A stretch of 64,000 nt of DNA from Edaphochlamys debaryana. Lineage: Eukaryota > Chlorophyta > Chlorophyceae > Chlamydomonadales. Positions within the stretch are counted from its first letter, which is position 1, and each line of letters begins with the position of its first letter. Shown here piece by piece: positions 5,598-37,127 of the stretch. The position numbers and the translations under genes are program-made. Location of the stretch: positions 1,054,001 to 1,118,000 of the forward strand of contig JAEHOE010000025.1 in assembly GCA_016858145.1 (NCBI GenBank). Direction: 5' to 3'. The notes beneath the pieces were generated by a model, which had not been told where the DNA came from, did not search any database, and saw only the letters and a program-made list of their open reading frames with translations.

Positions 5598-8500
5598 TCA
5601 CTCGCCCAGGTCCCCCTGAGGCCCCGCCCGTGCCACGCTCACAATGCCTAGCCCCGCCAGCGCCATGAACAGCGCGTGCACCACCACCAGCGCTAGGCCC
5701 AGGCCCCGCACCGCCCCCGCATTGGACCCCTCCCCCTCCCCCTCCGCCCCCCCCGCCCCCCCAAGCGCCTCCATGAGCGCCAGCGCCGCCGCCGTGCAGC
5801 TCCCCAGCAGCAGCACGACCGCCTGCCACCCCGCGTCCGCGTCCAGCTCCTGCCGCGCCTGCTCCGCCACCGCCGCCACCAGCGCCACCGCCGCCAGCGC
5901 CAGCAGCGCCGCGCCCAGCTGCTGCGCCGCCGCCCCCGCCCCCGCCCCCGCATCGCACGGCCGCCACAGCGCCACCACCACGGCCAGCGCCAGCCGCACC
6001 CCCCAGTCCAGCAGCTCGGGCAGCGGCGACTGCACCAGGCCGCCGCACAGCAGCAGCAGCAGCGGAGGCCGCGGCGGGCCGCCCCGCAGCTTCCTTTTGG
6101 CCGCCGCCGAGCCGCCCGCCAGTGGTGCACCCGCCCGCTCCACGCCACCGCCGTCGTCGCCGTCGCCGTCGCCGCCCGCTGCCGCCTCCGCCAGCGCCGC
6201 CGCCCGTGCGTCCACCCTCCGCAGCAGCGCCGCCAGCGCCAGGTGCAGCGCCGGCAGCAGCCCCAGCCCCAGCACCGCCCCGGGCACCCCGAACGCCGCC
6301 TGCAGCAGCCCCCGAGCCGGCCACCCGCTCCAGCCCAGGCCGGGGACCACGCGGACCATGCTGGCGCCCGCCCCGGCCCCGTTGCCATCAGCTGACCAGC
6401 CATCGCTGAGGACTGACCGCTGCAGCGCCAGCGGCAGCAGCCTCAGCAGCGGGGCCCAGGCAGCGGCGGGCTGCTTCTGCGTCGCGCGGGTCCGCGGCAG
6501 GCAGGGCAGCAGCAGCGACAGCGCCTGCAGCGCCAGGAAGGGCCACACCACCTGCAGCGCCGCCAGCAGCCCCGCCAGAGCCAGGGTGCACACGGGCCGC
6601 CAGCGACCGCGTAGCCCCGGGGGCCACATGCGCCGGCCCGGGCCGGCGGCCGCCAGCACCGCAGCGAACAGCGCCGCGGTGGCCAGCAGGAGCGCTGCGG
6701 GTTTGGGGTGGGGGGCGGGGGGTGGGGCACCCTCGTGTCAGCAATGCAGGAAGGCGAAGCTCTCACGCACTTGACGCTTAAACAGCACACGCGCTCACCC
6801 GCCACCGCCCAGCCCCACAGCAGCATCCGCGCCGCCAGGTCGCTGGCGTCCACCGCCTGCCCCCAGCCCCCCGGGCCGGGGCGCGTGGGCGGGTCCAGGG
6901 CGCAGGCGGGGGACACGAGGCCGCCCCCGAGCAGGTCCACGCCTCCAAACAGGCCCAGGACCTGTGGGGTAGGGGGAGGAGGGTAGGGGGTTGGAAAGGT
7001 GGGGCTGCGCTTGCAAGCGGACTCTCGGCCGCAGCTACACACCGGAGCCCTCAATAACCCTGGGCGCTGACACTCTCATGCGGCAGTCGGGTGCGTTCCC
7101 CACTCCGCCCCGCGGTCCAAGGCCCCATCCCCCCGCCCCCACCTGCAGCATGCCCCGCAGCTCCGCCGGCCCCCTCCCCGCGCCCCGCATGCGCCCCAGC
7201 AGCCCCAGCACGCAGCAGTGCAGCAGCAGCGGCCGCAGGGGGTAGCGCCGACCGCCGCCCGCAGGCAGCGCCCGCCCACTGCCGCTGCCGCTGCCGCTAA
7301 CACTGCCCCCTCCCGGCGCTCGCTCATCCTCCCCGGCCGACCCCAGCGCCGCCACTGCCGCCACCGCCTTGGCAGAGCCGCTGCCGGGGCCCGGCAGGGG
7401 CGGGGCCTGGTCCTGCCTCAGGCCGTGGACGCTGATGGCACTGGCACTGGCACTGGCACTGGCACTGGCACTGGCACTGGCACTGGCACTGGCAGTGGGG
7501 GTGCGGGTGGGGGAGGGCGTGATGGAGGCGAAGGCGCCGCCGCCCTCGGCCCGGGCGCTCGTGGCTCTCAGTGGAGAGCCAAGGGGTTGGAGGGCGGCCG
7601 GTGCCGGCAGCGGTGCCGGGTCTGGGGTGGGGCCTGGGACCGTTAGAGCGGTGGCCGGCCCGTCCCCGCCCTGGGCACGCCCCGCTCGTGCCCCGGCAGT
7701 GGATGCACGCGACGATCCCGAGCTGCCGGGCTCGAGCCCGGGGGCGGTCACGTGCCGGGCCACCCACTCGAGCGTCTTGGAGCCACCGCCCGGCGCAGAG
7801 CCGTGCTGCGACTGAGCCTGGGGTGAAGAGCCCGGCCGCCCGTCGCCAGAGGCGGAGCCACTGGACCCCCGGCCGCGCTGCACCGCGGGAGGAGGCGGCC
7901 GGCTGCCTGCCGCAGCGTCTGCGCCGCTGCTGCCACCCGCCTCGCGGCCACTGGCGCTGAGCTCAAGAGCGGCGCCGGGGTCTGTCGGGGGCTGGGTTGA
8001 GTGGTGCCCATCGGTGGCGGTCCAGGGTGCCGGGGGCGAAGGGCCGGGAGGCGGGGGCAGCGGCGGCGGCGGGGGCGTAGGTGGCAGGGCGGACCCCGAC
8101 TCTTGCCCCCCCGCCTGGTCGGGCTGTGCAGCTCCGTGGCTGCAGCGCTCGCTGGGGCCGCTGCTGCCGGGGCCGTCAGCCGGCTGCGGGCCCGGCAGGT
8201 CGGCGAAGGCAGTAGCCCCGTTCGGGCCGTGCTGTGACGGGCTGCTCCCCCCGTTGCTGGGACTGCGGGACCCACTGCTCGACAGCTGGGCCGGGCGGGT
8301 GTAGAGGCCGTGGGCCGTCCGGCTGTACTCCGCGTTGCCAGCCTCTGCGCCACTGTCCTCGTCGTTGCCGCTACTGCTGCCCCTGACAAGGCCCCTCCCG
8401 CCGCTCTCGCTCGCGTCACCCCGGCTGGTGCCGCTGCTTCCGCTGCCCGTCTGCTCATGCCCCATACCCCCGTTGGCGCCGCCGCTGGGGCGGGGGCGCT

Positions 8501-8759
8501 TGGCGGATGCGCCCCAGCCCAGGTCTGCGGCGCTCAGTCCTAGGTGGGGGGGCAGGGGCGCCAGAGGAGTGGCCCGGCCCCGCCAGGCGCGCACCACCGC
8601 CTGCCCCCCCAGCACCCCCGCGGCCGCCATGGCCAGCGCCGCCGCCCCCGTGGCCGCCAGTGTGAGGGCCCACAGCAGGCCCGCCAGGGCCCGGGAGCCG
8701 CTGCCGCCGCCCAGGGGGCAGGCCACACAGGTGCCGTACATGGTGGGGCCTGCAGCGGG
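5598..8759 (-). other. Membrane helix, low-complexity loop, multi-span C-terminus
   Basis: Second half of exon 10474-7143, then 6961-6799 and 6694-5598. A hydrophobic helix (LLWALTLAATGAAALAMAAA, coded near 8600-8690) is followed by about 450 residues rich in Ser, Gly, Pro and Asp with an (Ala-Ser)n tract, presumably cytoplasmic. Then RPLLLHCCVLGLLGRM and MLQVLGLFGGVDLLGGGL lead into several hydrophobic segments, among them LLLATAALFAAVLAAA, TLALAGLLAALQVVWPFLAL, LAVVVALW, AALLALAAVALVAAVA and GLALVVVHALFMALAGLGIV. From memory this resembles the terminal membrane block of other beta-helix surface proteins of algae and oomycetes; its biochemical role is unknown to me. Confidence 0.65.
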
Positions 8760-11700
8760 CGGCACGCAGGGCTGGGCGCAGGCGGCGGCGGCCTGCGGCG
8801 CTGCGGCGGCACACAGTGCTGTGTGCTGCATCAGGCGGTCTAGGGAGGCCAGCGCGGAGGCGGGGCCGGGGGCGGTGAGCGGCTGGGCGCTGCCCTGCTG
8901 CCGCCGCCGCGCCTCCAGCGCCAGCTGCTCCGCCGCCGCCAGCGCCCACGCAGCGGCACTGCCGGCGGGGGGGCACGCGCCCGGCTGCGCACAGGCGGCG
9001 GCGGCGGGGTCTGAGCTGCTGAGCCCCTCCGCCACCACGGTCAGGGTGGCTAGCGGCCGGGCAGCGGCACACGGCGACCCGCAGGAGCCGGCAGCGGCTG
9101 CCGGGCCCAGCAGCGCCCAGGTGGTGTTGGCCGGAGCCTCGGCGGTGGCGACCGCTCCGGAGCCGATTGGGGAGGGGCCAGTGGATACCCTGCTGCCCGC
9201 CGCCCCCAGCGCCGCCCCCAGTCCCCCCAGCAGCTGTAGCGGCCCCGCGACACCGCCGCCGCAGCGGCTGCCATTGCCGCTGCCGCCGCTTGCTAGCAGC
9301 GAGTTCAGCACCCAGCCTCCAGCGGGCGCCGCAGTGCCTTCGCTTGCCAGGCCGCCCTGAGCCGAGCGCCAGAGGGCAAAAAGCCGAGGGTCTGGCTCGG
9401 GCGCCGAGGGGCTCCACTGGGTCCCAGGTGGGCCCGACAGCAGTTGCCCTAGCGCGTCCCGGCGCAGCAGCACAGCGGGGGCCGCACCTGCCGCCCCGGC
9501 AGCTCCCCCCTGCCCGGGCGCCAAGTGGATGACGGCGGGGGACAGCAGCAGGTCGGAGGCGGGGGCGCCCTCACCGCTGACGGCGGCAATGGGGCCGCCA
9601 CCAACGGTGTCCAGGCCGCATGCTCCGCCGGCCCCCGCGTCCGCGCGGTTGCCGGCGGCCCATGCGGCGCACAGGGGCAGGCGCTCCGGGCTGCGCCCGG
9701 GGGTGGCGGCCTGCGCCCCCGCCCCCGCCCCCGCCTCCGCCACTGCCTGCGAGGCGCGCAGCAGCAGGGCGGCGGCCGCCTCCGCAGCGGCGCCCGCGTC
9801 CAGGGGGTCCCAGCGCCCCGGCCCTGCGGCCCCCGCCGCCCGCTGCATCCAGGGCTGCAGGGCCGCTCCCTCGGCCGAGAGCTCGGGGGGCGCGGGGCCG
9901 CAGCCCACCAGGGGCAGGGGCGCCCCTGCGGCCCAGTGCAGCCCGCCCCCCGGCGCCCCCGCGTTACCGCTCAGCTCCACTCCCAGCAGCGCCACCTCAG
10001 GGGTGGACGGGGGTGGGTAGAGGGCTCCACCGGGGGCCGCTCCGCCGCCGCCCCTGCCCACGTGCATGGCGCCCCCCGCGCCCTGGGCTTTGTTGCTTTG
10101 CAGCCGGCAGCCCACCAGGAGCACGGAGGCAGCGCTAGCGTTGCCGCCGGCAGCGGCCGGGCCTTGCTGCGGCGGGGCTGGCGCGAGCCGGAGGAGCAGC
10201 GCCCCACCCGCTGCCGCTGCCGCTGCCGCTGCCGCTGCCGCCGGTGCCAGGGCTGCCCGGGCGGTGTTGGCCTCCAGGCTGCAGCCCGCCAGCACCACGG
10301 CCGCCGCGGGCTGCTCCAGCGCCACTGCTCCGCCGCCGCCGCCTGCACCGCTGGCCGTGTTCCAGCCCAGCCTGCAGGCCGCCAGCAGCAGGGGGCCGCA
10401 GCGGTCGCAGCCCAGGGCGCCGCCCGCCTGCCCCGCGCTGTTGCCCGACAGGTCCGACTCCCACAGCGCCAGGCCTGGAGGCAGAGGGGGGAGGGGTGAA
10501 GGGGAGCGCAAGCTGGGCCATACTTGCTCTGGAATGCACGGACGCAGCTCAGGCATCGCTATCAATGCGGGCACAGCACGGCCAAGCAGGCGGTCTCCCG
10601 GGCTCACCGGCCGAGGGCCCCAGCGCCACCGCCCCGCCCCAGGCCGCCGTGTTGGCGGCGAAGGAGCAGCGCCAGGCGGTGGGGGGGCTCGGGGGGGCTG
10701 GGGAGGGCGAGGATGTGGGAGGAGAGGGCCCCCCGCCAGCCAGGTGCAGCGCCGGGCCCCGGGCTGCGTAGTTGCCGGCGAAGGCCACCCGGTGCAGGAC
10801 CACCAGGGCGCCGCCGGGGGACACCACCAGCGCAGCGCCGTCGCCCCTGCACACAGGAACATAGGTCGTAGTACCAAGCACGATCTGGCACCGGGGTGAA
10901 CGCAGGCCAGCCTCGCATGCGCCCCTCACCCCCCCCCCCGCGCCGCTCCTTACCCCGGGTTGGCGTTGCCCGCCATCAGGCTGAGCGACAGCAGCCGCAG
11001 CGCCCCGCCGCCGCCCACCCGCAGCGCAGCGCCCCGGTTGCGCACAAACACGCTCCGCTCCACCACCGCCTCCCCCCGGACCAGAGACAGGGCGGCGCCT
11101 GCGGGCATCCAGGTAGGGGGTGGGAGTGCACGTCGTCAGTGGAATGCGGGGCCCCCGCGTAGGGCAGCCACCCACACAGTCACCACCCTGGGCCCCCCCC
11201 ACCCTGGCCCCACCCGCGTTGCCCTCGAACCAGCAGTCCGCCACCAGCAGCGGCGCAGCCCCCGCCCCGAGGGGTGCGGGGATGTCCAGTGCCACTGCCG
11301 CCTCGGAGCAGTTGACAAAGGCCTGGGGTGGGTGGGCGGGGGGGTGACGGGGATGGGGGCGAGGTGCGGTCTCAAGGCTTGTCACAGCAGCCGGCCCAGT
11401 GCTGAGGCTCTGCCCCCACATTGTTCGCACCAGCAGCATCCTCTCTTTCCTCCCCCAATCGCAAGCCCGCCCACCCACCAGCCCGCGCAGCTCCACCCCC
11501 GGTGCCGCTACGGTGAGGGCCCTGGGGCCCCCCCGGCAGTCCATCACCGCACGGCCCGGCCCCGCAGCCAGCCACTCGCGCAGAGCCCCGGGGGCCGGCA
11601 CGGCAGCCGCCGGCTGCTCGCCCAAGCCCCGGCGCCTGCCCCAGCCCTGCCCCTCCTGCTGCGGCGGGGCGCTGGATCCTGGTTGCTGCGGGGCGGTGGC

Positions 11701-14700
11701 TGAGGCGCGGAGGGTGAGGCCGGGGCGGGACACGAGCAGCCCCTCCGGCCCCGCGGGGGGGCTACAGCGGGGCGGCAGCAGTAGCACCCCACCCCCGCCC
11801 CCGCCTGCGCCCAGGGAGCCGTCCAGCACCGCACCCTCCGCCGCATCACCACTGCCGCCGGAGTCTGCGGGGGCCAGGGCGGGCTCCAGGCTCCACACCC
11901 GCAGCGCCTGGGGCCGGGGGCCAGGAGCGGAGGGAGGAAGGAAAGAGGCAGTGGAGGGGCAGGCGCGTGCCACCCGGCTCTTGCGAAGCACCTACAACTG
12001 GCTTCCGCCCCCCTGTGCCAGCCTGTGCACTCTCTTGTGCATCCCCTGCCCCCCCCCCCCCTGCACCCCCTCCCACCTGCCCCCCCCCTCCCACCTGCCC
12101 CTCCCCGAACACCAGCCGCGGCGCGTCCACTGGCGGCAGGAGGAGGGCCGCGGAGCCGCCCAGAGCTCCCGAGGCCCGCGCCAGGGAGGGCGGCGGCAGC
12201 AGCTCGGGACCGAGCGGCGCCTCCCCGCCGACCTCCCCCTCGCCTCCGTCCAGCCTGCGCCACGTCAGCAGCGGCAGCTCCAGGGCCTCCAATGCCCCCT
12301 CCACCTCCCCCGCCTCTGCCTCTGCCTCCTCCTCCGCGGCCGCCAGGGCCTCCAGCGCGGGCCCCAGCTCCAGCGCCCACACGCCCCCCGCAGCCCGCCA
12401 GCCCGGGGGCGCCCCGCCCCGCGCCAGCCCCCCCGTCAGCAGCAGCCGCGACCCCGCAAGCGCCAGGGCGGCGTCCAGGCGGGGGCCCGGGCCGCAGCCC
12501 AGCGTGCGCAGGGGCAGCCACCTGCAGGGGGGGAGTTGGCACAGACGCATCGGTCACTGCACGCGAGGTGCGCTGCTTGCTGGGGCACGGCTTACCCTCA
12601 TGCAGCCCCCCCACCCCCACCCCCTGCCCCCACACACCCGCCTCCACCCCCCGCCCCCGCCCCCGCCCCCAGCCCCTGCTCACCTGGTCCCCGCCGCGGC
12701 CCCCTCGGCCCGGTGCCTCAGCAGCCACGCGTCCCCCAGCAGCCCCGAGGCCTCCCCGGGGTCCACCGCACCGCTGCCCCCGAACACCGCCATCACCCAC
12801 CCCGCGGCCCGCACGGCCTCCGTCCCCGACCCCGACCCAGGCCCCGAGGGGGGCGCTGGGGGCCAGGGCAGTAGGGGCGAGGCCGCGTGGCGCTGGCGGG
12901 GCGGGGGCTGGGGCCCTCCCCCCGAGGGCCACAGGGGCGTGGCGGCGAGCAGCGGCCCCCCCTCGGGCCCCTCCAGGTCGGCGGCCAGGTCCCCCTCTGC
13001 CTGGGGAGGGCTGGGGGAGGGAGGCGGCGGCAAGGAGGGGGGAGGGGAGAGCAGAGGCGGAGGGGGCTCCACGGGTGGCGGGCGGGGGGGAGACAGCCGC
13101 GGCGGCGGCCTGCCCCAGCGGGGGGGCGGCGGGGGCGGGGCGGGGGCGGCCTCGGGGGGCTGGCTGGGGGCGGCCGGGCGGCGGGCCAGGGGCGGGGGCG
13201 CAGCTGCGGTGGGGCGCTTGCACACGAACACGCGCTCCGCCTCGCAGTCATCCGCCTGGGGTTGGGGTGGGATGAGGTGGGGTGGGGTGGGGGGCGTCAG
13301 AGGGGAGAGGGAGTTGATCGAAAGGGGCACAGCCGAGCAGGGCTCGTCAGCCGGAGGACTGATCTGGTTCCCCAACGCTCCCTCCTTGTCCTACCCCAGT
13401 CACCCACCGCCCAGGTCTGTGTGACCGAGTCCAGGCTGACACACAGGGAGGAGGGGGAGGAGGGGGAGGAGGGCGAGGCGCCGCCGGGGCCCTGAGAGGG
13501 GAGCTTGGGCTGCCCGGGCGCCTGAGCACAGGGGGGGGGGGGGCGGGTGTGTCTGGATGCAGCGCCTGCCGTTGGAGCCCTCTGCAGGCGCTGCAGGGGG
13601 GCACGTCCGCAGGGCCTCCGGACGGGCGGGAGCGGTGCAACGCATCCCTCTGTTCGTAGCAACAGGGGGGCACACCCGGCAGGCCCGCACCCACCCAGGC
13701 CTGGAAGACGAAGGGGCTGCCGTCCAGCCACCTGAGCCCCCGAGGAACACGGGGAACAAGGGAAGGCAGACATGCCCGACGTTGGCTGTACATAGGAAAT
13801 GCCCAGTCTCCCGCCCGCCTTCTCCCCAGCACGCGCACACGCGTGGCGACAGCCCGGGTGCAGGGGCGCCCACGCAGGCCGCACCTGAACTCGTCCACGA
13901 AGCGGCCGTTGTCCAGCCCCAGCAGCACAGCGAACGCAGCGCCGCCCCCCTCGGCCCCCGCCCCCTCCCCCTCCCCCAGCAGCGCCCCCAGCGCCCCCAG
14001 CAGCCAGGCCTGCTCCCCCGCGTCCGCCAGGGACAGCAGCGCCGCGCCCGCCGCCCCGCACACCGCCCGCGCCTGCGCCTGCGTGAAGCGGTGGGCGTAG
14101 AGCAGGAAGTCGTGGCCGCCGCGGGGGAGCAGGCGGTCGGGGGGGGGCCGGCCTGGGGGGAGAGGGGGCGGGGGAGATGGGCGTTGGGCAGGCCCCAACC
14201 AGGCATTCTCATTCTCCAGCGCATCCCCTCAGCACGGGCCTGTGTGTGGTGCAGAGGCGCAGCACAAGGGCGCAGCAGCCGCCGGCCCCGCCCCCCCCCC
14301 TCTCGGAGCACCCACGTGCGCACACGAAGCCCAGCTGCTCCTCGCACGCCGCCCCCTGCAGCGCCAGCAGCGCCCGGCCGTCGCTGCAGCGCCCCAGCGC
14401 CAGCGCCCCGCAGCCGCCGGGGGCGGAGCCGGGACCCGCGGCGGGTGGGGGCGCCGGTGCGGGGGGCAGCAGGGCCGCGGGGCGCCGGGGCTGCGCGGGG
14501 GCGGGGGGCGGGCGGAGCAGCCCCGCCCCGCCCCACCCCCCCGCCGCTGCGTCCCAGGCCTGCAGCTGCTCGGGCGTCAGGGGGCTGCCGTCGGGCCAGC
14601 GGGGCGGGCCGTCTGGGGGAGGGAGGGGCCCAAGGGGGAAGCAAGCCGTGTGTCCGCAAGGGTTCCAGAGGGCAACAACAGATGGCGTCGGTGAGGGAGG

Positions 14701-29700: not shown

Positions 29701-32700
29701 GGCGGCCACGGCCCGCAGAACCCTGGCGCGGGGGAGGGGGGCAGAGGAGGGGGGCGGGTAGGGGGGGCCGGGGATGGGGTAGGCGGGGTGACCGGCGGTG
29801 TGCTGACGTGTGGTGCGCATGCGTCCTGCACCGTGGAAGGCCCCATGCACACGTCGCAGATGTGGGGTGTGCTGGGGCCCCGTCCCCCGCAACACCCTTC
29901 CCCCATTCCCCCGCCTCCCCCCCGCCCGCGCACCTGCCCCTGCGGTAGCGGACCACGTCCACGGGCGGGGGCGGGGGCACGGGCCGCTCGCAGATGAAGG
30001 CCAGGCGCAGGGAGCAGTCCTGGGGGGGAGGGGGGAGGTGTGTGTGTGTAAGGGAGAGGGGTGAAGGCAGTGTCCCGCGGAGGGCCGAGGCGCCAGGAGC
30101 CTCTGTCGGGCCAGGCACCCCCCCTGGAGCCCCCATCCCCCCCCCCGCCCCCACCAGGTTCATCCACCCCGAGGACTCTGTGAAGGTGGAGGCGGGCGCG
30201 GGCATGCCCAGCGCCCCGCACTGGGGCGTGCCGGTCCTGGGGTGGCGAGGGGTAAGGGGCAGGACCCGGGCTTCAAGGAGCGTGGGGTGCCCAGGCCAGC
30301 GCAGGGGTGGCGGACGAGGAGACGGGCGCTTGGAGGAGGCGTGCTGTACGGCAGGACCACTAAGTGGACCCCACCCGGCACCCCCCTCCCCCCCCCTCCC
30401 CCTTCCCCTTCCCCTCCATCCCCCGCCCCACCTCTGCGGGTAGTCGTTGGCCCAGGCCGTGAAGGCGCCCAGCGGCCCCCGCGCCCCGCCCGGGCCCCAG
30501 CCGTAGTCCGCCACGCCCCCCCCCTGCGCACTGTACAGCCCGAACCAGCAGCCGCCCGCGGTGGTGGACACACTGGAGCGGACTGGGGGGGAGAGGGGGG
30601 CAGGGAGAGGGGGGGGGGGCGAGGGAGGGAAGAGGGAGGTGCACGGGACGAGGTTGTGCCGGTCCTGACGGAGGGGGGGACGGAGAGCGTACGAGCACCA
30701 CGTTCCCGCCCCCAGTCCGCCCCGCCCCGCCCCACCTGGCGTCCGCACCCTCAGGCACAGCCGCATGGCGAGGTCGTGGACGTCGGCGGTGCGAGCCTCG
30801 ATCAGCCAGCCGCCGGCCTGGGGGGGAGGGGGGAGGATGCTGGCTGTTGCTGCCCCCCACCCCCTCGTCCCAAGCCCCGCGAGGGCGCCCGGGGCGGGTC
30901 CGCGCGGAAGGCCGTCCTGAGCCGGGTCCGCCCGACCTTACGACCCCCAGTGCACTCCCCCCCCCCGCTCACCTGCTTGCACACCTCGTTGGCCTCCTCC
31001 CAGGTGCGCAGGGGCCCCGGCACCCAGTACAGCCGCCCCCCGGACACCCTGCGCGGAGGCCGGCACCGGGCGGGCGCCCCCAGTCAGCTGCGGCCCAGCG
31101 CCCCCGACCCCAGCAGCCCCAGCGAGCTCCCGCCCCTCTCCCCCTCCCCCTCCCCCCCTCGAGGGCACCCCGCCACCGCCCATGCGCTGCGCCGCGGGCG
31201 CCGCTCACTCCTGGCTGCCCGCCCCGCTGTCCCCCGGCGGGCCGGTGAGAAAGGCGGCGGAGGAGTTGGAGGCGCCGCCCGCGTAGTCCAGGACCATGGG
31301 CCGGGAGCCTGGGGGGTGGGGGAGGGGGGTTGGGAGGGGGTGATGCAGGTGGGTGGCACCGAGGTGGGGGTCATGTGGACCTGCGGCCGCAACAGGAGCC
31401 GGGGCGCAACCCATGCCCCGGGGCCCCACCAGGCAGGGGTGTCAGCCCCACAGCGGGCCGCTTGCATGCGAAGGCCTGCAGCCGGGGTGGGGGCAGGCAG
31501 GCGGGAGGGCGGCACGGAGGTGGGCCGTTCAGAGCATCAATCGGGGCTGCGTTGACAGCACGACGTGGGCAGGAGGGGCAGGTGTCCGGGGTGTGCTCCT
31601 CGCCCGCTCCCCCTCCCCGCCCCTGCCCCACCTGCATGAGGCTGCAGGGCCGGTCCAGCCACTGCCCCGCCCCCGCCCCCTGCGCCTGCATGACCACGCA
31701 CTGTCCCTCGGCCCCCCCCGCGTTGTCCGGCTCCAGGCGGGCCCAGTTGGCCCAGGCGCTGGGGGGGGGGGGAGGGGAGGGGAGGGGAGGGGAGGGGGGG
31801 GGAGGGGAGGGGAGGGGAGGGGAGGGGACGGGGAGGGGACGGGGGAGCCTGTCAGGGCGTGGTTCCCTGGCACCGCTTGGTGTCTTGTGCGGGGGTGTGA
31901 GGGGCAGGGCACCGTGACCAGTGACGGAGCACAGGGGGGTCCTGGCGTGGTCGTACAAGTGTGCCGCTGCAGTTCTAGTGCGGTTTCGGAGAGCGCCCCG
32001 CCCCCTCCACAACTCCCTCACCCCCCCCCCTGCCGGCATCACCTCCTGTCCGCCAGGCTGGCGTTGCTTCCGTCCGCCCAGGTCCAGGCGAACGAGGGCG
32101 CGGGGCCGGAGCCGGGGCCCAGCGCGGGGCTGCCGGCGGCGGGGCCGTACGCCAGCAGCAGGGGGGCGGGCGGGGAGGGCAGCGAGGCAAGCGGGTCCTG
32201 GGGGGGGGGTTAGGCAAGAAGGAGAGGGGTGGGTGTCAGCGCAGACCGGGCCGCGCAGGCGTGCTACCGAGAGGAGCTTGGCGCCATGCCTCCATCGCCC
32301 CCCGCCGCCCTCCTCCCGGCCTCACCCCCGCCGCTGCCCCCGCCGCCGTCAGCGGTACCGCACTGCGCCCCAGCGCCAGCCACACGTCCCCCGCCGCCGC
32401 CAGCTCCGCCAGGCGCTGGTTGGCGGGGGCGTCGGGGAGGGAGGCCAGCGTGCCGCCTGGGGGGGGGGGGTATGGGTGAGGTGGATGCGCGGGCTTGCGG
32501 CAGAGAGCAAGGGGAGCGGAGCGGGACTGCGGAGAGGAGGCAAGGGGTCAGGCCGCAGGGCTGGTGATACAGTTGAGGGAGGCCATGCCCCGCAGCCCCT
32601 CCCCCCCCCGCCCCCGCGCACCCCTGGCGGCGCATATGGCTGCTGCGTCGGGCTGCGCCGCCCATGGGTCGGTGAACACCTCCAGAGCGGTACCACCCGC

Positions 32701-35700
32701 GGCCGCGTACACGGAGGGCACGGCTGAGGGGTTGGAGGGGGGGGATGGGAGGGGGTAGGCGGAGTGCGAGATGGGGATCAGACAGTCAGTAGGAGGGCTT
32801 GTAGGGTGGGACAACCCCCCTCACACCCACGCGTTCCCCCCTGTGTGCTCACACTGGTTGCGCAGGGCCTGGTACTTGAGCTGCCAGCGGGGGGGCGACT
32901 GGGGGTCCGCGGCCTCGGCGGAGGGCGGGGGCAGGGGGGGCGGCGGAGCCGAAACTGAGCCCTCGGCCAGAAGCCGCGCATGGCGCCCCGGGTCCCCGGG
33001 GGGATGCGACGCCTCCAGCCCCTCCACTAGGACCCGGCTCCGGCGCCGTGCCCCCGGTTGCGGGCCGGGGCTGGGGCTGGCGGGGCCGGGGTCCAGCCTC
33101 AGCGCCCAGAGCTCTGCGCTGGCGGCCAGGGCACCGTCTGCGGAAGGGGATGGGTGGGGCCGGGCAGTGCAAGCGCTCATGGGATAGCGCCAAGGCTAGA
33201 AGGGGGCCTTGTACCTAGGCCGTATGCTGCTGCCATGCAGGCCCCGGCCCCAGCCCTTGCTCCCCAGAGCTGGCCGCACCCGGCCCCAGCGCCACTCCGC
33301 CGAACAGCACCGCCTCCTCCACCGTCCCGCCGCCGCCCGGGCCGCCCTCGGGCGCCGCGGCGGCCGACAGACTGGCACCCGCGCGGGGCAGGGGCCAGGG
33401 ACGCGAGCGCAGCCCCGGGACGAGCCGCTGCACCACCCAGGCCCCAGCGCCCAGCCCTGAGGAATGAGGGGCACACAGGTAGGGGCGGGGGGTAGGGAAC
33501 CCACGTGGTGTCATTATGGGAAGATGGCAGGCTGCCGCTCCGGGCGCGCGCACCTGCACCGCCGCCCCCGCTGCTGTTGCCGGCGTCCCCCCCTGCGGGC
33601 TCCCGCCAGGTCAGGAGGAAGGCGTCCTCGAGCAGCTGGGGGGGCGGAGGGGGTGAGGCGGGGGGCGGCGCCGCGCCGTACCCCACCTCGAACACGTCCA
33701 CTCCGGCCCCGGGGCTGGGCACATCTGGGCCCTGCGCCTCCCCGTCTACGCCCCCCGGTGGTGCCACCGCGCCCCCCACCACCACCAGCAACCCGGGCTG
33801 CGAGGCGGGGCTGCCGGGCCCCGCCAGCCCCGAGGGCGGTGCGGCCCAGGGCGCCAGCGCCAGTGCGGGGTGCACCCGGGCCCGCAGCAGCGCCAGGGGG
33901 TCGGGGGCGGCGGCACCGGGCGCCTGGGGCCGGGGCAGGGGCCCCAGCAGCTGCTGCAGTCCGGCGGCGGTGGCGACCACACAGGATCCGTTGGGGGGCC
34001 GGGGGGCCGGGGCCCCGCTGGCCGACACGTAGGTGGTTGCGGCCGGGGGCGGCGGCCAGGGGGTGCAGCGGAGCAGGGCCCCGCTGGCCTCGGCGCCCGC
34101 GGCCCCCCGCCGCAGCAGCCCCAGGGCCAGGGCGTCCGGGGGCTGCCGAGCGCCCCACAGCAGGGCGCCCACGGTCCGCGTGGCGGCGGAGGCGGCGATC
34201 GGGAGGGGCCAGGGCCCCAGCACACGCATGGGGAGCGAGGAGCTGGCGGCGGAAGCCGGGGGAGTGCTGGCCGGCCCCATGAAGGGTCCCCCTGTCAGCA
34301 GCCAGGCGGGCAGGGCCGAGCCGTTCAGCGAGCCGGTGCCGCCTGCCTCGACCCCGGGGCCCGGGGCGCAGGGCGCGGGCCGCGGGTCTGCGGCCAGCTC
34401 CAGGGCGGCGAGGCGGGCGGGGTCCAGGAGCACGGCCCTCGCCGAGGGCTGCCGGGGGGCAGGCCCCGGGGGGGATGCATCGGGCGGGGGCTGCTGCTGG
34501 GAGCTTGGGGCGCTGGGCTCCCCACAGCCGGTCCCGGGGTCGGGGCCTCCGGTCTGCAGCCCCCCCATGACGAGGACGACCTGCTGTGCCTGAGGAGAGG
34601 CAGCGGGGGGGGGGGGGGAGGGCGGAGCGGGCCCCCAGGTCACCACGAGCGGCAGGGGCGGTGGGAGGGGCAGGAGGTGGGACACTGCGACGGGGCCCGC
34701 ATGCGTGTGCTCTGGCTCCCGAACCCAGGCCCCTGCGCCCCTCGAGGCAGCCCAGCTCACCTGCGCCTGGCCCCCTCGCAGCACAGCGGCGCTGGCCCAG
34801 CGGGCGGCGGGCTGGGGCCCTCGCTGGGCCCCCGGGGGCCGAGCCCAGGCGGGGTCTGGTGCCAACAGCGGGGGTAGCGGGGAAGCGCCAGGGTAGCCAG
34901 CCGCATCGGCGAACCGCCAGCGCAGCTCCAGCGCGGGCGGTTCCCATGACCCGCCTCCCGTTATCGCTTCCCTTGCCGCTGTGAGCGCGGCGGTCAGGTT
35001 GCCCACGGCCCAGGCCTCCAGGTGCCAGCCGGTGGATCGGGCAGGGGAGGAGAGGTTGCTGCAGTGGGGGCAACGTTGGCGAGGGGCGATGGGCTTACGG
35101 TATGCAAGGGACACTCCGACAGATTTATCGGCTGTGGCGGGTGGCTACCGTGGACATTGCCCCGCGGCAGCACAGCTCGTGTGCTGGATCCCCCTGCAGG
35201 GCCCCCTGCCGCCAAGCCCTGCCCGCGCCCCCACCTGCCCCCCGCCGCCCCGCTCCTCCCCAGGCGCTCCAGCACCAGCCCGGGCCCCGCCAGCCGCAGC
35301 GCACTGCCGCCCGCGTCCCAGCGCTGCAGCGGGGGCCCAGGCGTAGGGGCGCCCGAGGCCCCCGTTGGCACTGTGCTGCTGCTTGCGTCGCCCGCTGCCT
35401 CCAGAGACCCCAACCGGCGCCACACGGCGGTGGCCTCGCCCCCGGCTGGGATCAGGGCAAAGGCCAGGGCCTCCCCGGCCGTGTCGGGCAGCCCGGCTGT
35501 GCCGTCACCCGCCTCCCCCCCGGCCGCCTCCAGGCCCTGCCCCGGCGCCCCCAGCACCCCGTGCGCCAGCAGCACCACCCCGGGTGCGCCAGCCCCGCCC
35601 CCGCCATCCCCACCGCCGCCGCCAGCGGAGGCGGCGGAGGCTGCGGTGACGGCCAGCAGCGCCAGGGGCTGCAGCTGCACCGGGGGCGCCCCTCCGCCGG

Positions 35701-37127
35701 CAGCCTCCGGCGGGGCGCCAGGGCCCTGCTCCCCGTCCTCCCCACTCGGGGGTGGGGGCGCGGGCGCCCACGTCACGCCCAGCCGCCGCCACGCGCCCAG
35801 CGCCAGGTCGCAGGCCCACAGGTCCGTGAGCCTGGGGCGGGGAGTCCAAGGGACAGAGCGCGAATGCTTGGGCTGGCAGGAGACAGGCCCGTGCAAGTCT
35901 TCAGCCCGCCTCCGCCCTCGCCTCACCTCACGAGCGAGGCGCCTCCCACTGCATCCCCGCTGCCGCTGGCGGCCCCGGGCGCCCCAAAGCCCCCCGCCAC
36001 GAAGAGGGCGGGGCCCGGGGCCCACAGGGCCACGGCAGCACCCACACGGGGCGGGGGCTGGTCCCCCCCTCCACACAAGGTCTCCGCCGCGCCACTTCCC
36101 GGGTGAAGCAGGAGCACGTCGCCCCTCAGCTGCCAGCCACCGCTGCGGCTGCCTGCAAGCCCGGGATGGGGAAAGCAGGTCGAGGGCGGTCGAGCAGGCA
36201 GGTCGTCCCATTAGGTGCGCCCTCCGCCCTGAACTCCTTACCCGAGGCGCCCCCAAAGACCAGCAGCCGCCGGCCCCAGGCTGTAAGGCTGTGGCCCCAG
36301 CGGCCCGGCAGCGGTGACCCTGGCGGGCGCACGCATGCAGACGTCAGCGGACTCGATGGCCTGCACGCCCTCAAACACCATGGCACCCGCCCCCTGCGGC
36401 CCACCAGCGATGGAAGCGTTCAGGCGCAGGCTGGCCGCCGTCATGCCCCCCAGGTCATAGGCCCACAGCCGGTCGCCGGGCGCCAGCCGGGAGGTGTTGC
36501 CCGCGCCCTCCAGGCCCCCGTAGGCGTAGACCTGCCGGTGGAGCCGCGGGCGGGGGCGGGGCACACGATGACAGGTTGGGCTGGTGCTGGGGTGGCTGTC
36601 ACCGCAAGCTTATAGGCTTAGTCGCCATGGAGCTCATGGAATACGTCCTTAGCCTCAGCCAACACACGAGGCCCTGACTCGTTGGCGCCTGCCCACGTCT
36701 TGGATCAGCTGGTCAGTTGGACCGCCGGTGCGTGGTGCTGGACCGCCAGTGCGGCGGCGTCCCCGCCGACAACCTGCCTCCGGTGTGCCTGCCTGCCCTG
36801 ACGGGCCGCACCTGCCCTCCGACGGCAACCATAGCGTGTCCGTACAACGAGGGTACCGCAGGCCCACCAAGCGGCTGCAGCGGCTCACACCAGAGCGCAC
36901 CGCACCCCTTGAGTAGTACCATGGCGGTGCACGGGTGAGACGTGACCAAGGAGGGGGGGGGGGGGGAGGGAAGGCGGGAAAGCGCAGGCGAGTGCTCGAA
37001 CGCTGGAGGTCAGGCCGGTTCCCTCCCGACCCCCCGACACTCTCGCATGCATCAGGCTTACCAGCAGCCGCCAACCGATAAGCAGGTAAGAAACAGATAG
37101 TAGCCAGCCACCATTTGCCGACACCAT
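5598..37127 (-). CDS. Giant multi-CTLD, Kelch and beta-helix membrane protein
   Basis: Seventy-four exons from the ATG at 37127 to the stop ending at 5598 total 19,689 coding bases, exactly divisible by three, and each exon's entry and exit phase agrees with its neighbours. That agreement over about 31 kb is the main argument for one gene. Order by residue: signal/anchor 1-22; Kelch 23-981; eighteen C-type lectin-like domains 982-4407; Pro-rich linker; second Kelch-like unit to about 4725; right-handed beta-helix to about 5500; Cys-rich patch and one membrane helix near 5627-5657; a 450-residue Ser/Gly/Pro-rich loop; and a multi-span membrane block 6104-6562. Exon limits are given in the domain entries. 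Introns are GT-AG except two GC-AG. The lectin domains lack a clear EPN/QPD plus WND calcium site. A cell-surface or flagellar-membrane receptor or adhesin is inferred, not shown. Splitting into several genes is possible but would need start codons, which I did not find between modules. Confidence 0.85.
7437..7494 (+). repeat. CTGGCA hexanucleotide repeat (Ala-Ser tract)
   Basis: About nine copies of a CTGGCA unit lie inside the 3.3 kb exon of the giant gene. On the minus strand they encode alternating Ala and Ser in the cytoplasmic loop. The unit is six bases, so length changes keep frame. Confidence 0.9.
8760..11907 (-). other. Right-handed parallel beta-helix and Cys-rich patch
   Basis: Exons 11907-11479, 11322-11214, 11098-10954, 10846-10608 and the first half of 10474-7143. 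Short strands end in G-N or N-x-A turns in regular spacing: ADCWFEGNAG, RSVFVRNRGAAL, VAFAGNYAARGPALHL, CSFAANTAAWGGAVAL, SDLSGNSAGQAGGAL, CSLEANTARA, CRLQSNKAQGAGGAM, VELSGNAGAPGGGL. This is the pectin-lyase-like or polymorphic-membrane-protein type of repeat. It closes with Cys-rich sequence (CAQPCVPPAAGPTMYGTCVACP) just outside the first membrane helix, as in large algal and oomycete surface proteins. Confidence 0.75.
12095..13209 (-). other. Pro-rich linker and second Kelch-like unit
   Basis: Rest of exon 13255-12684 and exon 12521-12095. About 120 residues of Pro/Ala/Ser-rich linker (stretches such as PAPPPPPPRWGRPPP) lead to AGWVMAVFGGSG, GDAWLLRHRAEG, PRLDAALALAGSRLLLTGG and GGVWALELGP, which repeat the Kelch strand pattern of domain 1. 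Only about two blades are visible, so it is either a small partial propeller or closes with strands elsewhere. Confidence 0.6.
13210..14152 (-). other. CTLD 18 (residues ~4253-4407)
   Basis: Exons 14152-13885, 13731-13695, 13521-13408 and the start of 13255-12684. HDFLLYAHRFTQAQARAVCG, FAVLLGLDNGRF, WLDGSPFVFQAWAPGQP, LCVSLDSVTQTWAADDC, RVFVCKR. The TWAADDC strand is the nearest thing to a WND-type strand in the array. Confidence 0.8.
14316..15747 (-). other. CTLD 17 (residues ~4043-4252)
   Basis: Exons 15747-15653, 15426-15391, 15236-15180, 14986-14842, 14612-14316. GLQYLVASPAQMQ, ADVAASSCEQLGGWLAAV, VRLWTGMQLPAG, PRWPDGSPLTPEQL, GCGALALG, ACEEQLGFVCA. Exon 15426-15391 is only 36 bases and was placed because it supplies the helix with the first Cys in frame. 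Confidence 0.75.
15891..16837 (-). other. CTLD 16 (residues ~3879-4042)
   Basis: Exons 16837-16776, 16622-16491, 16298-16127, 16016-15891. RAAYLVFVE, RDQAMATCAAAGG, SQFWLGLRAAADP, YRAWATGEPATG, LLTCAAG, PEMPFVCE. The GEP motif of the long loop is kept. Confidence 0.8.
17001..17860 (-). other. CTLD 15 (residues ~3669-3878)
   Basis: Exons 17860-17774, 17664-17609, 17487-17001. VRFALFSGASQW, DADAACTAAALAAAA, ASRLATLRS, LFWTGLTVTALG, FAYRWRDDAPYSPDW, ACVALEAGE, DTRLPFACS. Confidence 0.75.
18107..18926 (-). other. CTLD 14 (residues ~3460-3668)
   Basis: Exons 18926-18715 and 18521-18107. WEYLLLAPP, GRAACARLGGDLAAVNS, LQVWVGLRVVAA, DGSERLWDG, ACVAWQPRI, LLPPLCK. Two exons only, with a Pro/Ser/Ala-rich long loop. 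Confidence 0.75.
19093..19965 (-). other. CTLD 13 (residues ~3295-3459)
   Basis: End of exon 20544-19902, then 19759-19711, 19574-19488, 19387-19093. IDYDGRRLAFFP, ATVCASNQ, GGWLASLRNAGE, GSVWIGVQQPAPGQP, WAAGEPRALA, ACTRLSL, QRSLPFVCT. The intron after 19711 starts with GC (GC-AG); only that junction keeps the frame. Confidence 0.8.
19966..20544 (-). other. CTLD 12 (residues ~3102-3294)
   Basis: Most of exon 20544-19902. FSLYLHTLHPATWAQAQAVC opening, AVWAGLGVRERS, a Ser-Pro repeat loop, YAWADGGPVAW, ACVAVELGGG, DCSEGLFVACK. It is followed in the same exon by the opening strand of CTLD 13. Confidence 0.75.
20227..20258 (+). repeat. GGGCGA repeat (Ser-Pro tract in CTLD 12)
   Basis: Five near-perfect hexamers within the CTLD 12 exon, read on the minus strand as alternating Ser and Pro in the long loop of the lectin domain. 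Confidence 0.8.
20723..21439 (-). other. CTLD 11 (residues ~2930-3101)
   Basis: End of exon 22062-21218 plus exon 21015-20723. AAAEAVCRGSGGRLLSLHS, RMWLGLVEVLPAS, SRWLDGTALDY, AACYAVSGGGW, CASELPFACK. The first part shares an exon with the end of CTLD 10. Confidence 0.75.
21440..22379 (-). other. CTLD 10 (residues ~2666-2929)
   Basis: Exons 22379-22318, 22219-22112 and most of 22062-21218. ASAVCAARGASLVRP, SALWSGLLVRAVAG, a long Pro/Ser/Asn-rich loop, ERCVGLL, and the closing ARLPFLCE. The third exon begins inside a TGCAG pentanucleotide array, so its exact start (22062 or 22047) is uncertain. Confidence 0.7.
22041..22066 (+). repeat. CACTG pentanucleotide array at a splice acceptor
   Basis: Five CACTG units. 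On the minus strand they read TGCAG five times, so the array offers a series of CAG acceptors. The frame fits an acceptor after the first (exon start 22062) or after three more units (22047). Confidence 0.85.
22495..23380 (-). other. CTLD 9 (residues ~2481-2665)
   Basis: Exons 23380-23240, 23079-22996, 22824-22495. AARACDAVADSG, GGQLLSLRSDLEG, LIWSGLFWEAGP, YVRWAAGEPEPLL, LCVALARQ, CVMELPFVCR. The WAAGEPEP loop holds the EP pair typical of the long loop, but a WND strand is missing. The acceptor before 22824 is AAAG, an untypical but frame-consistent choice. Confidence 0.75.
23593..24022 (-). other. CTLD 8 (residues ~2338-2480)
   Basis: Remainder of exon 24073-23593, fused without an intron to the end of CTLD 7. 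RELLFLTGLHQAASRTEA with AACGALG, APLLWLDDTG, GCRALTAAGT and the closing AALRFVCS. The WIGL strand is short or missing. Confidence 0.65.
24023..25202 (-). other. CTLD 7 (residues ~2134-2337)
   Basis: Exons 25202-24998, 24841-24741, 24520-24267 and the first 51 bases of 24073-23593. DAEAACRALGGHLPSAHS, VTWWTGLRYTAP, PPLAWADATPYDYPAA, ALCFRTS, and VVASCSEAHAVVCARP at the end. The boundary with CTLD 8 is inside an exon, without the usual phase-1 intron. Confidence 0.75.
25406..26178 (-). other. CTLD 6 (residues ~1987-2133)
   Basis: Exons 26178-26019, 25855-25796, 25626-25406. Compact domain: YTDAEAACRLLGGHLASL, AAFWIGLDDNR, GCYRWTDGRDPGLAYHHF, NNCTAAS, AWTNRRCSDQLPALCM. The WIGLDD strand and WTDG loop are close to the canonical pattern. 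Confidence 0.8.
26411..26486 (+). repeat. C6-7G intronic minisatellite
   Basis: About eleven units of a C-rich heptamer (CCCCCCG) fill most of the intron between exons 27014-26493 and 26178-26019 of the giant gene. No coding role; on the minus strand it is G-rich and could form quadruplex structure in the transcript. Confidence 0.85.
26493..27373 (-). other. CTLD 5 with Ala-Gln repeat (residues ~1754-1986)
   Basis: Exons 27373-27197 and 27014-26493. WAGAAAACAGGVRAAALLP helix, then an (Ala-Gln)n tract coded by a hexanucleotide repeat, AWAWVGLAASADGAWWWANG in place of the WIGL and W-x-DG region, AVLCGAVEL and the closing GDLPYVCF. Ends in phase 1. Confidence 0.75.
26937..26989 (+). repeat. GGCCTG hexanucleotide repeat (Ala-Gln tract in CTLD 5)
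   Basis: Nine tandem GGCCTG units inside exon 27014-26493, translated on the minus strand as alternating Ala and Gln. The tract lies between the first helix and the WVGL strand of CTLD 5. In-frame length variation is expected. Confidence 0.9.
27544..28943 (-). other. CTLD 4 (residues ~1542-1753)
   Basis: Exons 28943-28771, 28667-28614, 28482-28432, 28235-28137, 28001-27828, 27628-27544. Helix ADAEAACMDMGGHVV, then REEDTYLSSIAAQ, the strand GLWIGLRFNP, SYGWLEPT, CCLVTRLYFD and the closing PRPFACR. The exon ending at 27828 is followed by GC, not GT, so this intron is GC-AG; only that junction keeps the frame. Confidence 0.75.
29181..29722 (-). other. CTLD 3 (residues ~1361-1541)
   Basis: Coded by a single 542-base exon, unlike most neighbours. 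Shows FDDADVGCQRSGG, GLVWVGGDNGWGS, a WLDAGG loop, VCTALS and the closing RLPYVCS. The exon ends in phase 1 one base after the codon following the last Cys. Confidence 0.75.
29934..31308 (-). other. CTLD 2 (residues ~1169-1361)
   Basis: Exons 31308-31209, 31048-30973, 30817-30736, 30582-30432, 30236-30155, 30019-29934. Opening strand RLYWVPGPLRTWEEA with EVCK in the first helix, GGCWFGLYSAQ in place of the WIGL strand, AFTAWAN in the long loop, GWMNLDCS and the final AFICER. It ends in a VPPPPP linker to CTLD 3. Confidence 0.75.
31430..32723 (-). other. CTLD 1 (residues ~982-1168)
   Basis: Exons 32723-32622, 32456-32326, 32197-32043, 31758-31632, 31475-31430. Helix with AICAAR, strand DVWLALG, long loop with WADGSNAS, W-WARLEPDN, then CVVM, a WLDRPC strand and the closing AFACKR. 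This is one of the best matches to the C-type lectin pattern: W-x-D-G, EP motif, and four Cys in canonical order. EPDN resembles EPN, but no WND partner is visible. Confidence 0.8.
31761..31854 (+). repeat. Purine-only GGGGA array in an intron
   Basis: Around 90 bases of almost pure G with regular A, in GGGGA units, lie in the intron between exons 32197-32043 and 31758-31632. On the sense (minus) strand this is an extended polypyrimidine tract just upstream of the acceptor. Confidence 0.85.
32853..36874 (-). other. Kelch beta-propeller domain 1 (residues 23-981)
   Basis: Exons 36874-36812, 36531-36405, 36319-36242, 36152-35927, 35831-35235, 35058-34761, 34580-33554, 33456-33280, 33137-32853. 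Kelch signatures recur: YGHAMVAVGGQVYAYGG, GRWGHSLTAWGRRLLVFGG, ALFVAGGFG, VVLVMGGLQTGG, LLVVVGGAV and AVLFGGVALG, each with a paired Gly after hydrophobic residues and followed by a D-L-W or LWAL strand. Six to seven blades are likely, with long Ala/Gly/Pro loops between strands. Extracellular Kelch propellers usually bind proteins or glycans. The same order, propeller then lectin domains, is unusual. Confidence 0.75.
37062..37127 (-). other. Giant gene exon 1: signal peptide or anchor
   Basis: ATG at 37127-37125, then 22 codons ending at a GTAAGC donor (intron starts 37061). The peptide is hydrophobic (core WLLSVSYLLIGWRLL) and joins in phase 0 to the first Kelch exon at 36874. A secreted or membrane topology is what the lectin and beta-helix domains require. 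The exon is inferred from one ATG, one donor and the hydrophobic core, so it is less certain than the exons that follow. Confidence 0.5.

Follow-up and report, generated by a model that had tools for sequence, protein, structure and literature searches.

The window analysed here is a 64,000-nucleotide stretch of the Edaphochlamys debaryana genome (assembly GCA_016858145.1, contig JAEHOE010000025.1 (C25), positions 1,054,001-1,118,000, forward strand), and its positions 5598 to 37127 are very probably one giant gene on the minus strand, with an ATG at 37127, a TGA stop at 5598-5600 and a single open spliced frame between them. Three models of this gene were built. Model 1, a splice-aware HMM with a self-trained codon model (started from a Chlamydomonas codon table) and with its ends fixed to those of the first-pass annotation, gave a stop-free frame of 78 exons and 6,309 aa. 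Model 2, a multi-gene HMM with free ends trained on eight stretches, also returned one gene, of 80 exons and 6,322 aa, with the same stop and a start at 36637 instead of 37127. The curated model includes one 63-nt exon added by hand and reads three in-frame predicted introns as coding, for a total of 76 exons and 6,495 aa. The first-pass annotation had described a single gene of 74 exons and 6,562 residues; the single minus-strand frame and its stop were recovered, but the exon number and length were not reproduced (76-80 exons and 6,309-6,495 residues over the three models). It had also pointed out that all 73 splice junctions keep phase, which is true but is guaranteed by construction in any such model and is no evidence alone.

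The coding signal is strong on the strand of the gene, with a log-odds score against an all-intergenic reading of 2,465; the opposite strand scored 668, and five dinucleotide shuffles scored between 20.5 and 67.8. Intron retention would cause a frameshift or a stop for 62 of the 77 introns of model 1; the other 15 are doubtful, and three of these were merged into exons in the curated model. The composition of the encoded protein is extreme (A+G+P+L 59%, curated model). Coordinates of the gene and its features are listed in Table 1.

Table 1. Positions of the giant gene and its features in the window (CTLD, C-type-lectin-like domain; TM, transmembrane).
Feature	Position	Strand	Basis or remark
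Giant gene, whole	5598..37127	-	Curated model, 76 exons, 6,495 aa; ends as in the first-pass annotation
Exon 1, with the ATG and a hydrophobic leader MVSANGGWLLSVSYLLIGWRLL	37062..37127	-	Model 1; signal peptide read by eye
Exon 2, 63 nt, completing the first Kelch motif YGHAMVAVGGQ/VYAYGG	36812..36874	-	Added by hand
N-terminal Kelch region, residues 24-960	32875..36871	-	PF24681 at residues 19-214; remainder by eye
Array of 18 CTLDs, residues 985-4364	13211..32673	-	Lectin_C and our own CTLD HMM; domain edges by eye
CTLD 1	31455..32673	-	Only domain where an EPD...WLD pair lies close to the canonical Ca2+ site
First of 11 phase-1 introns located 4 nt past a last Cys codon, here that of CTLD 3	28944..29180	-	Curated model
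CTLD 4	27246..28797	-	C-terminal cysteine pair and C-terminal half absent from the model; exons uncertain here
CTLD 18, strongest single match	13211..14102	-	iE 9.3e-16, seeds outside the giant gene
Second Kelch block, residues 4449-4680	11842..12886	-	PF24681 17.9 bits, below the cut-off of 50
PMP-like beta-helix, residues about 4690-5170	9861..11814	-	Homology to P0001; edges by eye
Short Cys-containing segment ahead of first TM	8691..8882	-	By eye
First TM segment, residues 5563-5593	8592..8684	-	Hydropathy
Low-complexity Ser/Gly/Pro linker, about 470 residues	7191..8591	-	Predicted cytoplasmic; membrane side presumed
C-terminal block of 7-8 TM segments, residues 6066-6482	5640..7175	-	Hydropathy; TRP identity by position only

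At the N-terminus, the proposed Kelch region was confirmed by profile search: PF24681 scored 63.8 bits (cut-off 50) with exon 2 included (385-aa query), versus 41.2 bits without it (2,640-aa query), and Kelch_1, _3, _4 and _6 also exceeded their own cut-offs. Exon 2 was missed by both HMMs; since it completes the first Kelch motif, the start at 37127 is favoured. The attractin-type Kelch profile PF24981 remained below its cut-off of 50 in this region (27.5 bits).

The central part of the protein is an array of CTLDs, for which the number of 18 put forward from the letters alone is in good agreement with our count of about 18, a figure that may be given fair confidence. When the model-1 protein was searched as two halves, these scored 118.4 and 88.1 bits with Lectin_C (PF00059, cut-off 22.6), and a CTLD HMM made from 12 seeds outside the giant gene gave the protein 283 bits, compared to -0.3 for the reversed and -1.3 for a shuffled sequence. 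This 12-seed HMM produced 17 matches with iE below 0.05, which fall in 16 domains, and none in the controls. When the domains of the protein itself were included in a second round, all 18 positions were filled, but the shuffled sequence also gave two weak matches (iE 0.0035 and 0.007), and CTLDs 5 and 8, the weakest, are therefore assigned by position. The CTLD fold has two conserved disulphide pairs (four cysteines), and exactly four cysteines were found in 11 of the 18 domains, with three to eight in the remaining seven. Sugar-binding C-type lectins have a canonical Ca2+/sugar motif consisting of EPN or QPD plus WND; by a simple pattern, the other 17 domains lack the near-canonical pair of CTLD 1, and 'lectin-like' is accordingly a safer designation than 'lectin'. 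The median pairwise identity among the 18 domains is 35% by global alignment, and they are alanine-rich, a composition too biased for dating the array. A protein search with the full array (4,343 aa, residues 930-4340; 1,446 candidates scored) found none at E 0.001. In a six-frame Lectin_C scan of the genome (141,892,200 bases, 502 contigs), 34 matches were obtained, 12 of them over the cut-off, and the giant gene was represented by one sub-threshold match (E 0.73). Six-frame searches can thus overlook such genes.

The introns provide an independent sign of this array, as the gene-finding HMM has no knowledge of domains. The last Cys could be placed in 17 CTLDs, and in 11 of these (CTLDs 3, 5, 6, 8, 9, 11, 13, 14, 15, 16 and 17; curated model) a phase-1 intron lies exactly 4 nt past its codon; in model 2 the number is 10 of 17. 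The intron preceding CTLD 1 (residue 968) is also in phase 1. When these 75 introns were placed at random, the mean was 0.23 and the maximum 4 in 20,000 trials, with any phase-1 intron 1 to 8 nt past the Cys codon accepted in this control, a wider target than +4. Elsewhere inside the CTLDs, introns recur at two profile columns only, 14 and 33 (phase 0), twice at each. These observations support the gene model and mark the CTLDs as phase-1 exon modules. Duplication of modules bounded in this way leaves the frame intact, so the array most likely expanded through duplication of exon groups. The rule is not shown to be general, being partial in another predicted CTLD gene of the same genome (C3, two of nine motif sites at +4 and one at +7) and nil in two others (C112, 0 of 4; C74, 0 of 3). 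A preference of mobile domains for phase-1 introns has been described for animals (PMC3488318).

Beyond the array, the second Kelch block aligns with Kelch sequences of two relatives, P0001 (BLAST E 1e-4) and P0002 (E 6e-5), which are described below. The beta-helix had no Pfam match at E 10 (neither PF13229 nor PF02415), and this element of the first-pass annotation is upheld by homology instead: in a phmmer search with the beta-helix part, P0001 was the sole protein at E 0.01 or below among 7,982 scored (E 3e-16), and BLAST gave 37% identity over 144 residues (E 2e-14; 1.6e-8 under stricter composition statistics). The beta-helix of P0001 itself passes PF13229 (35.5 bits, cut-off 25.9). Hydropathy then indicates one TM segment, a long loop and seven to eight further TM segments, consistent with the multi-span C-terminus that had been expected. 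The Cys-containing segment ahead of the first TM had no Pfam match and no significant alignment to the DUF7630-like sequence that relatives carry at the same place, and neither DUF7630 nor an EF-hand is visible in the giant protein. An SRCR domain is likewise absent from the spliced protein (Pfam), and among the 125 genomic SRCR matches listed, none lies in the window.

From its N-terminus, the giant protein runs through a Kelch region, an array of about 18 CTLDs and a second Kelch block to a beta-helix, a TM, a long loop and seven to eight further TMs. The first-pass annotation knew of no described protein with this order, but precedents exist. P0001, a 2,253-aa protein from a 9,135-bp contig with the source label 'lgn', joins CTLDs, an F5/8-type domain, Kelch, beta-helix, a Cys-rich stretch, TM, loop and a multi-TM block in one protein. 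It differs from the giant protein in its F5/8-type domain (29.7 bits, cut-off 27.8), in a sub-threshold DUF7630 (20.6 bits, cut-off 27) and in having only three Lectin_C stretches in the available piece, which begins inside a CTLD. The CTLDs of the two proteins match with a BLAST E of 2e-7 (5e-4 under stricter composition statistics), the Kelch match is dropped at E 0.001 under these statistics, and the best E in the reversed control was 3.5. Pfam gave no TRP match for P0001 at E 1, and its TM block stops early by eye.

A search with P0001 recovered 74 proteins (P0001 included) among 7,985 scored, six of which carry a precomputed PF06011 (TRP) assignment: Chlamydomonas schloesseri, Bryopsis, C. 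reinhardtii, C. incerta and two eukprot entries. The C. schloesseri protein, P0002 (HYH02_001630, 3,139 aa), contains PMP repeats and a TRP domain (PF06011, 36.8 bits, cut-off 28.5) in addition to two Kelch blocks, and no CTLD match was obtained in Pfam; an EF-hand-like tail was noted by eye. Compared directly with the giant protein, P0002 matches over the second Kelch block only, with the beta-helix at E 0.33. P0001 matches P0002 over the beta-helix and Cys-rich region (E 1e-51), the TM block (E 2e-19) and Kelch (E 2e-16, BLAST), and thus serves as a bridge between the giant protein and P0002. A third case, C58, lies at 111-132 kb of another contig of the same genome, where a first predicted gene contains Kelch (55.7 bits), F5/8-type (32.5) and Kelch (51.6) domains and a second one, 600 bases on, a beta-helix and Cys-rich stretch (by eye), a TM and a TRP block (32.6 bits). 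All four scores are above the Pfam cut-offs, an EF-hand is sub-threshold and no CTLDs were found in the two predictions, which are taken as one gene by analogy with P0002. A tblastn search of C58 with the giant protein gave no match at E 0.01. P0002 and C58 resemble the giant protein in their succession of Kelch, middle region, Kelch, beta-helix, Cys-rich stretch, TM, loop and TM block; unlike it, they yielded no CTLDs, pass Pfam for TRP and have an EF-hand-like tail, and C58 further differs in its F5/8-type middle and its prediction as two genes. The giant protein shares the Kelch/beta-helix/TM order of P0001 and P0002, with its TMs placed by hydropathy and with a middle that may be CTLD or other in this group. 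It is unusual in its size and its phase-1 lectin modules, and the order is common to its relatives.

Whether the terminal membrane block of the giant protein can be recognized as TRP by sequence was approached in several ways. Pfam returned no match on this block, PF06011 included, and a PF06011 profile search across the genome gave neither a match nor a control signal. Its score with family HMMs did not exceed that of shuffles over three rounds. When it was aligned globally with six relatives (300 shuffles each), the z values were 0.9, 0.8, 0.2, -0.8, 3.0 and 0.1, the 3.0 being the comparison with P0004, in which 1 of 300 shuffles was as good. With hhalign against two family alignments, 43 and 6 of 60 shuffles were as good; the corresponding numbers were 849 and 413 of 1,000 for local alignment, 2 of 60 for a PSSM, and 236 and 55 of 500 for the comparison with the C58 block (45 of 178 scored). 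Of 15 positions that do not vary among six relatives, the block retains about 6 by eye. An AlphaFold prediction of the last exon alone, made without an alignment, had a mean pLDDT of 51.6 and was uninformative. Taken together, these comparisons give no significant similarity in sequence to the TRP-like block; by position, on the analogy of its relatives, the block would be TRP-like.

Considering that the order has precedents in P0001, P0002 and C58, the giant protein is probably a relative of an algal Kelch/beta-helix/TRP-like family, and we lean moderately towards the reading that it is a divergent lectin-array member of this kind and perhaps a surface sensor channel. The first-pass annotation suggested a very large surface receptor or adhesin, for mating, self-recognition or contact with bacteria; our results agree with a surface protein of very large size that carries a lectin-type array, but 'sensor channel' appears to be a better lead than 'adhesin', as the membrane block is placed where relatives carry a TRP-like block. 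Channel function is a best guess. A giant receptor or adhesin whose C-terminal helices act as an anchor only, without channel activity, is somewhat unlikely in our judgement, although the divergence of the TM block, with no detectable TRP similarity, and the lack of a visible DUF7630 or EF-hand leave room for such a pore-less anchored receptor. It fits less well with the TRP-like position of the block in comparison to P0001, P0002 and C58, with a TM spacing that is similar by eye, and with a GxPG motif at the matching TM that is common to the giant protein, P0001, P0002 and P0033, a motif found in 3 of 23 family blocks that also arises in 97 of 2,000 composition shuffles.

The possibility that two or three same-strand neighbours (a Kelch gene, a lectin gene and a Kelch/beta-helix/TM gene) were joined by the gene finder is improbable. 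It is consistent with the low cost of some forced breaks, since a gene boundary imposed at 20 of the 79 introns of model 2 cost as little as 9.5 nats (36578), 11.2 (19009) and 13.9 (10900), and with the splitting of the homologous C58 region in two by the same HMM. Yet the score fell every time (9.5-78.3 nats), and the free multi-gene parse yields one gene. Moreover, P0001 is a single protein in which a TM block occurs together with CTLD, Kelch and beta-helix, and P0002, one annotated protein, combines PMP repeats and TRP with both Kelch blocks. The motif TGTAA, which we take to be the Chlamydomonas polyadenylation signal, occurs once about 860 nt beyond the stop (4735) and at four sites within the gene, the latter in favour of several genes, but with two to three estimated by hand from composition this signal is uninformative. 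That the gene is a decaying, non-functional paralogue of a C58-type gene, as the divergent TM block, the lack of a visible DUF7630 or EF-hand and the low-complexity expansion might suggest, is quite improbable given more than 6,000 codons open over 76 exons, a frame that depends on the splicing of most model-1 introns, and the presence of exactly four cysteines in 11 of the 18 CTLDs.

If the giant protein is indeed a divergent lectin-array relative of this family, the family frame would consist of Kelch, a variable middle, Kelch, a PMP-type beta-helix, a Cys-rich stretch, TM, a long loop and a TRP-like multi-TM block, and the variable middle would here be the roughly 18 CTLDs grown from phase-1-bounded exon modules. 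Kelch, CTLDs and beta-helix may form a long stalk directed outward from the cell, which could bind glycans or glycoproteins belonging to mates, to bacteria or to the alga's own wall, and binding to the stalk or a pull on it might gate a flow of cations via the membrane block. A more specific proposal, offered tentatively and with rather low confidence, is that this unicellular alga possesses a lectin-gated channel of TRP type, in which about 18 phase-1 CTLD modules would have multiplied within a Kelch/beta-helix/TRP scaffold to give a polycystin-like glycan sensor that arose independently of animals.

Several known systems resemble parts of this architecture. The macrophage mannose receptor family (MRC1/2, LY75, PLA2R), which provides the top PDB sequence matches of the P0001 CTLDs, also consists of membrane proteins with tandem CTLDs, and differs in having 8-10 CTLDs and a single TM without Kelch, beta-helix or multi-TM block. 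Attractin (ATRN) combines a Kelch propeller with one CTLD in a large surface protein; its single CTLD, its EGF, CUB and PSI domains and its single TM set it apart. Polycystin-1 has a giant ectodomain that includes a lectin-type domain and is joined to a multi-TM block related to TRP, but its domains are different, and the likeness is one of layout with no homology claimed. Algal lectin domains also occur in the volvocine SRCR/C-type-lectin proteins discussed by Craig et al. 2021 (PMC8226300), citing Wheeler et al. 2008. These proteins form the most expanded E. debaryana orthogroup, with 16 genes versus at most one in five other species (PMC8226300); they contain SRCR, which is absent from the giant protein, and the passage concerned names neither Kelch nor TRP (PMC8226300). 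A literature search, mostly outside subscription journals, found no description of the giant protein or its architecture.

If the sensor-channel reading is true, the abundant animal-type recognition domains of volvocine algae would gain a possible signalling output, a channel-like block within single giant proteins, and the array would show that domain modules bounded by phase-1 introns have multiplied in a green alga.

The two adjoining predictions on contig C58 of the same assembly (G000) probably represent a single gene, in which Kelch, an F5/8-type domain and a second Kelch part are followed by a beta-helix, a Cys-rich part, a TRP block and an EF-hand-like tail. Its membership in the algal Kelch/variable middle/Kelch/beta-helix family is clearer than that of the window's giant gene (5598..37127). 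The loci of a tandem cluster on C40 share 83-98% identity by exon with a piece of the transmembrane block of the E. debaryana protein HYH03_008749, and PMP and DUF7630 matches lie near this cluster.

Predicted genes with C-type-lectin-like domains (CTLDs) are also found on two other contigs. Several CTLDs occur in the gene on C3, together with a part that by eye resembles glycosyl hydrolase 18. In the C74 gene, of which a second copy lies in inverted orientation near 188 kb, PAN-like repeats, a transmembrane segment and a protein kinase part (HRDLKPDN) were also recognized by eye, and its architecture appears receptor-kinase-like.

Features within the window and elsewhere in G000
Feature	Position	Loci	Details
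Adjoining predictions	C58:111230-132661	L034-L036	two
Tandem cluster of loci	C40:575-693 kb		
Predicted gene	C3:1468001-1498000	L017-L019	103 exons, 4,223 aa
Predicted CTLD gene	C74:173-182 kb	L014, L015	
Hexamer repeat	window 26936-26989		9 copies, 100% matches
Hexamer repeat	window 7436-7498		10.5 copies, 98% matches

GC content is lower at both edges of the window's gene, and ten selected open frames outside it (688-3497 and 38165-60642) gave no Pfam match at E 0.001. Both hexamer repeats inside the gene are read as lying in coding linkers (Gln-Ala and Ser-Ala runs), whereas the splice-aware gene model places the 7436-7498 repeat in an intron. The two repeats possibly vary in length from strain to strain.
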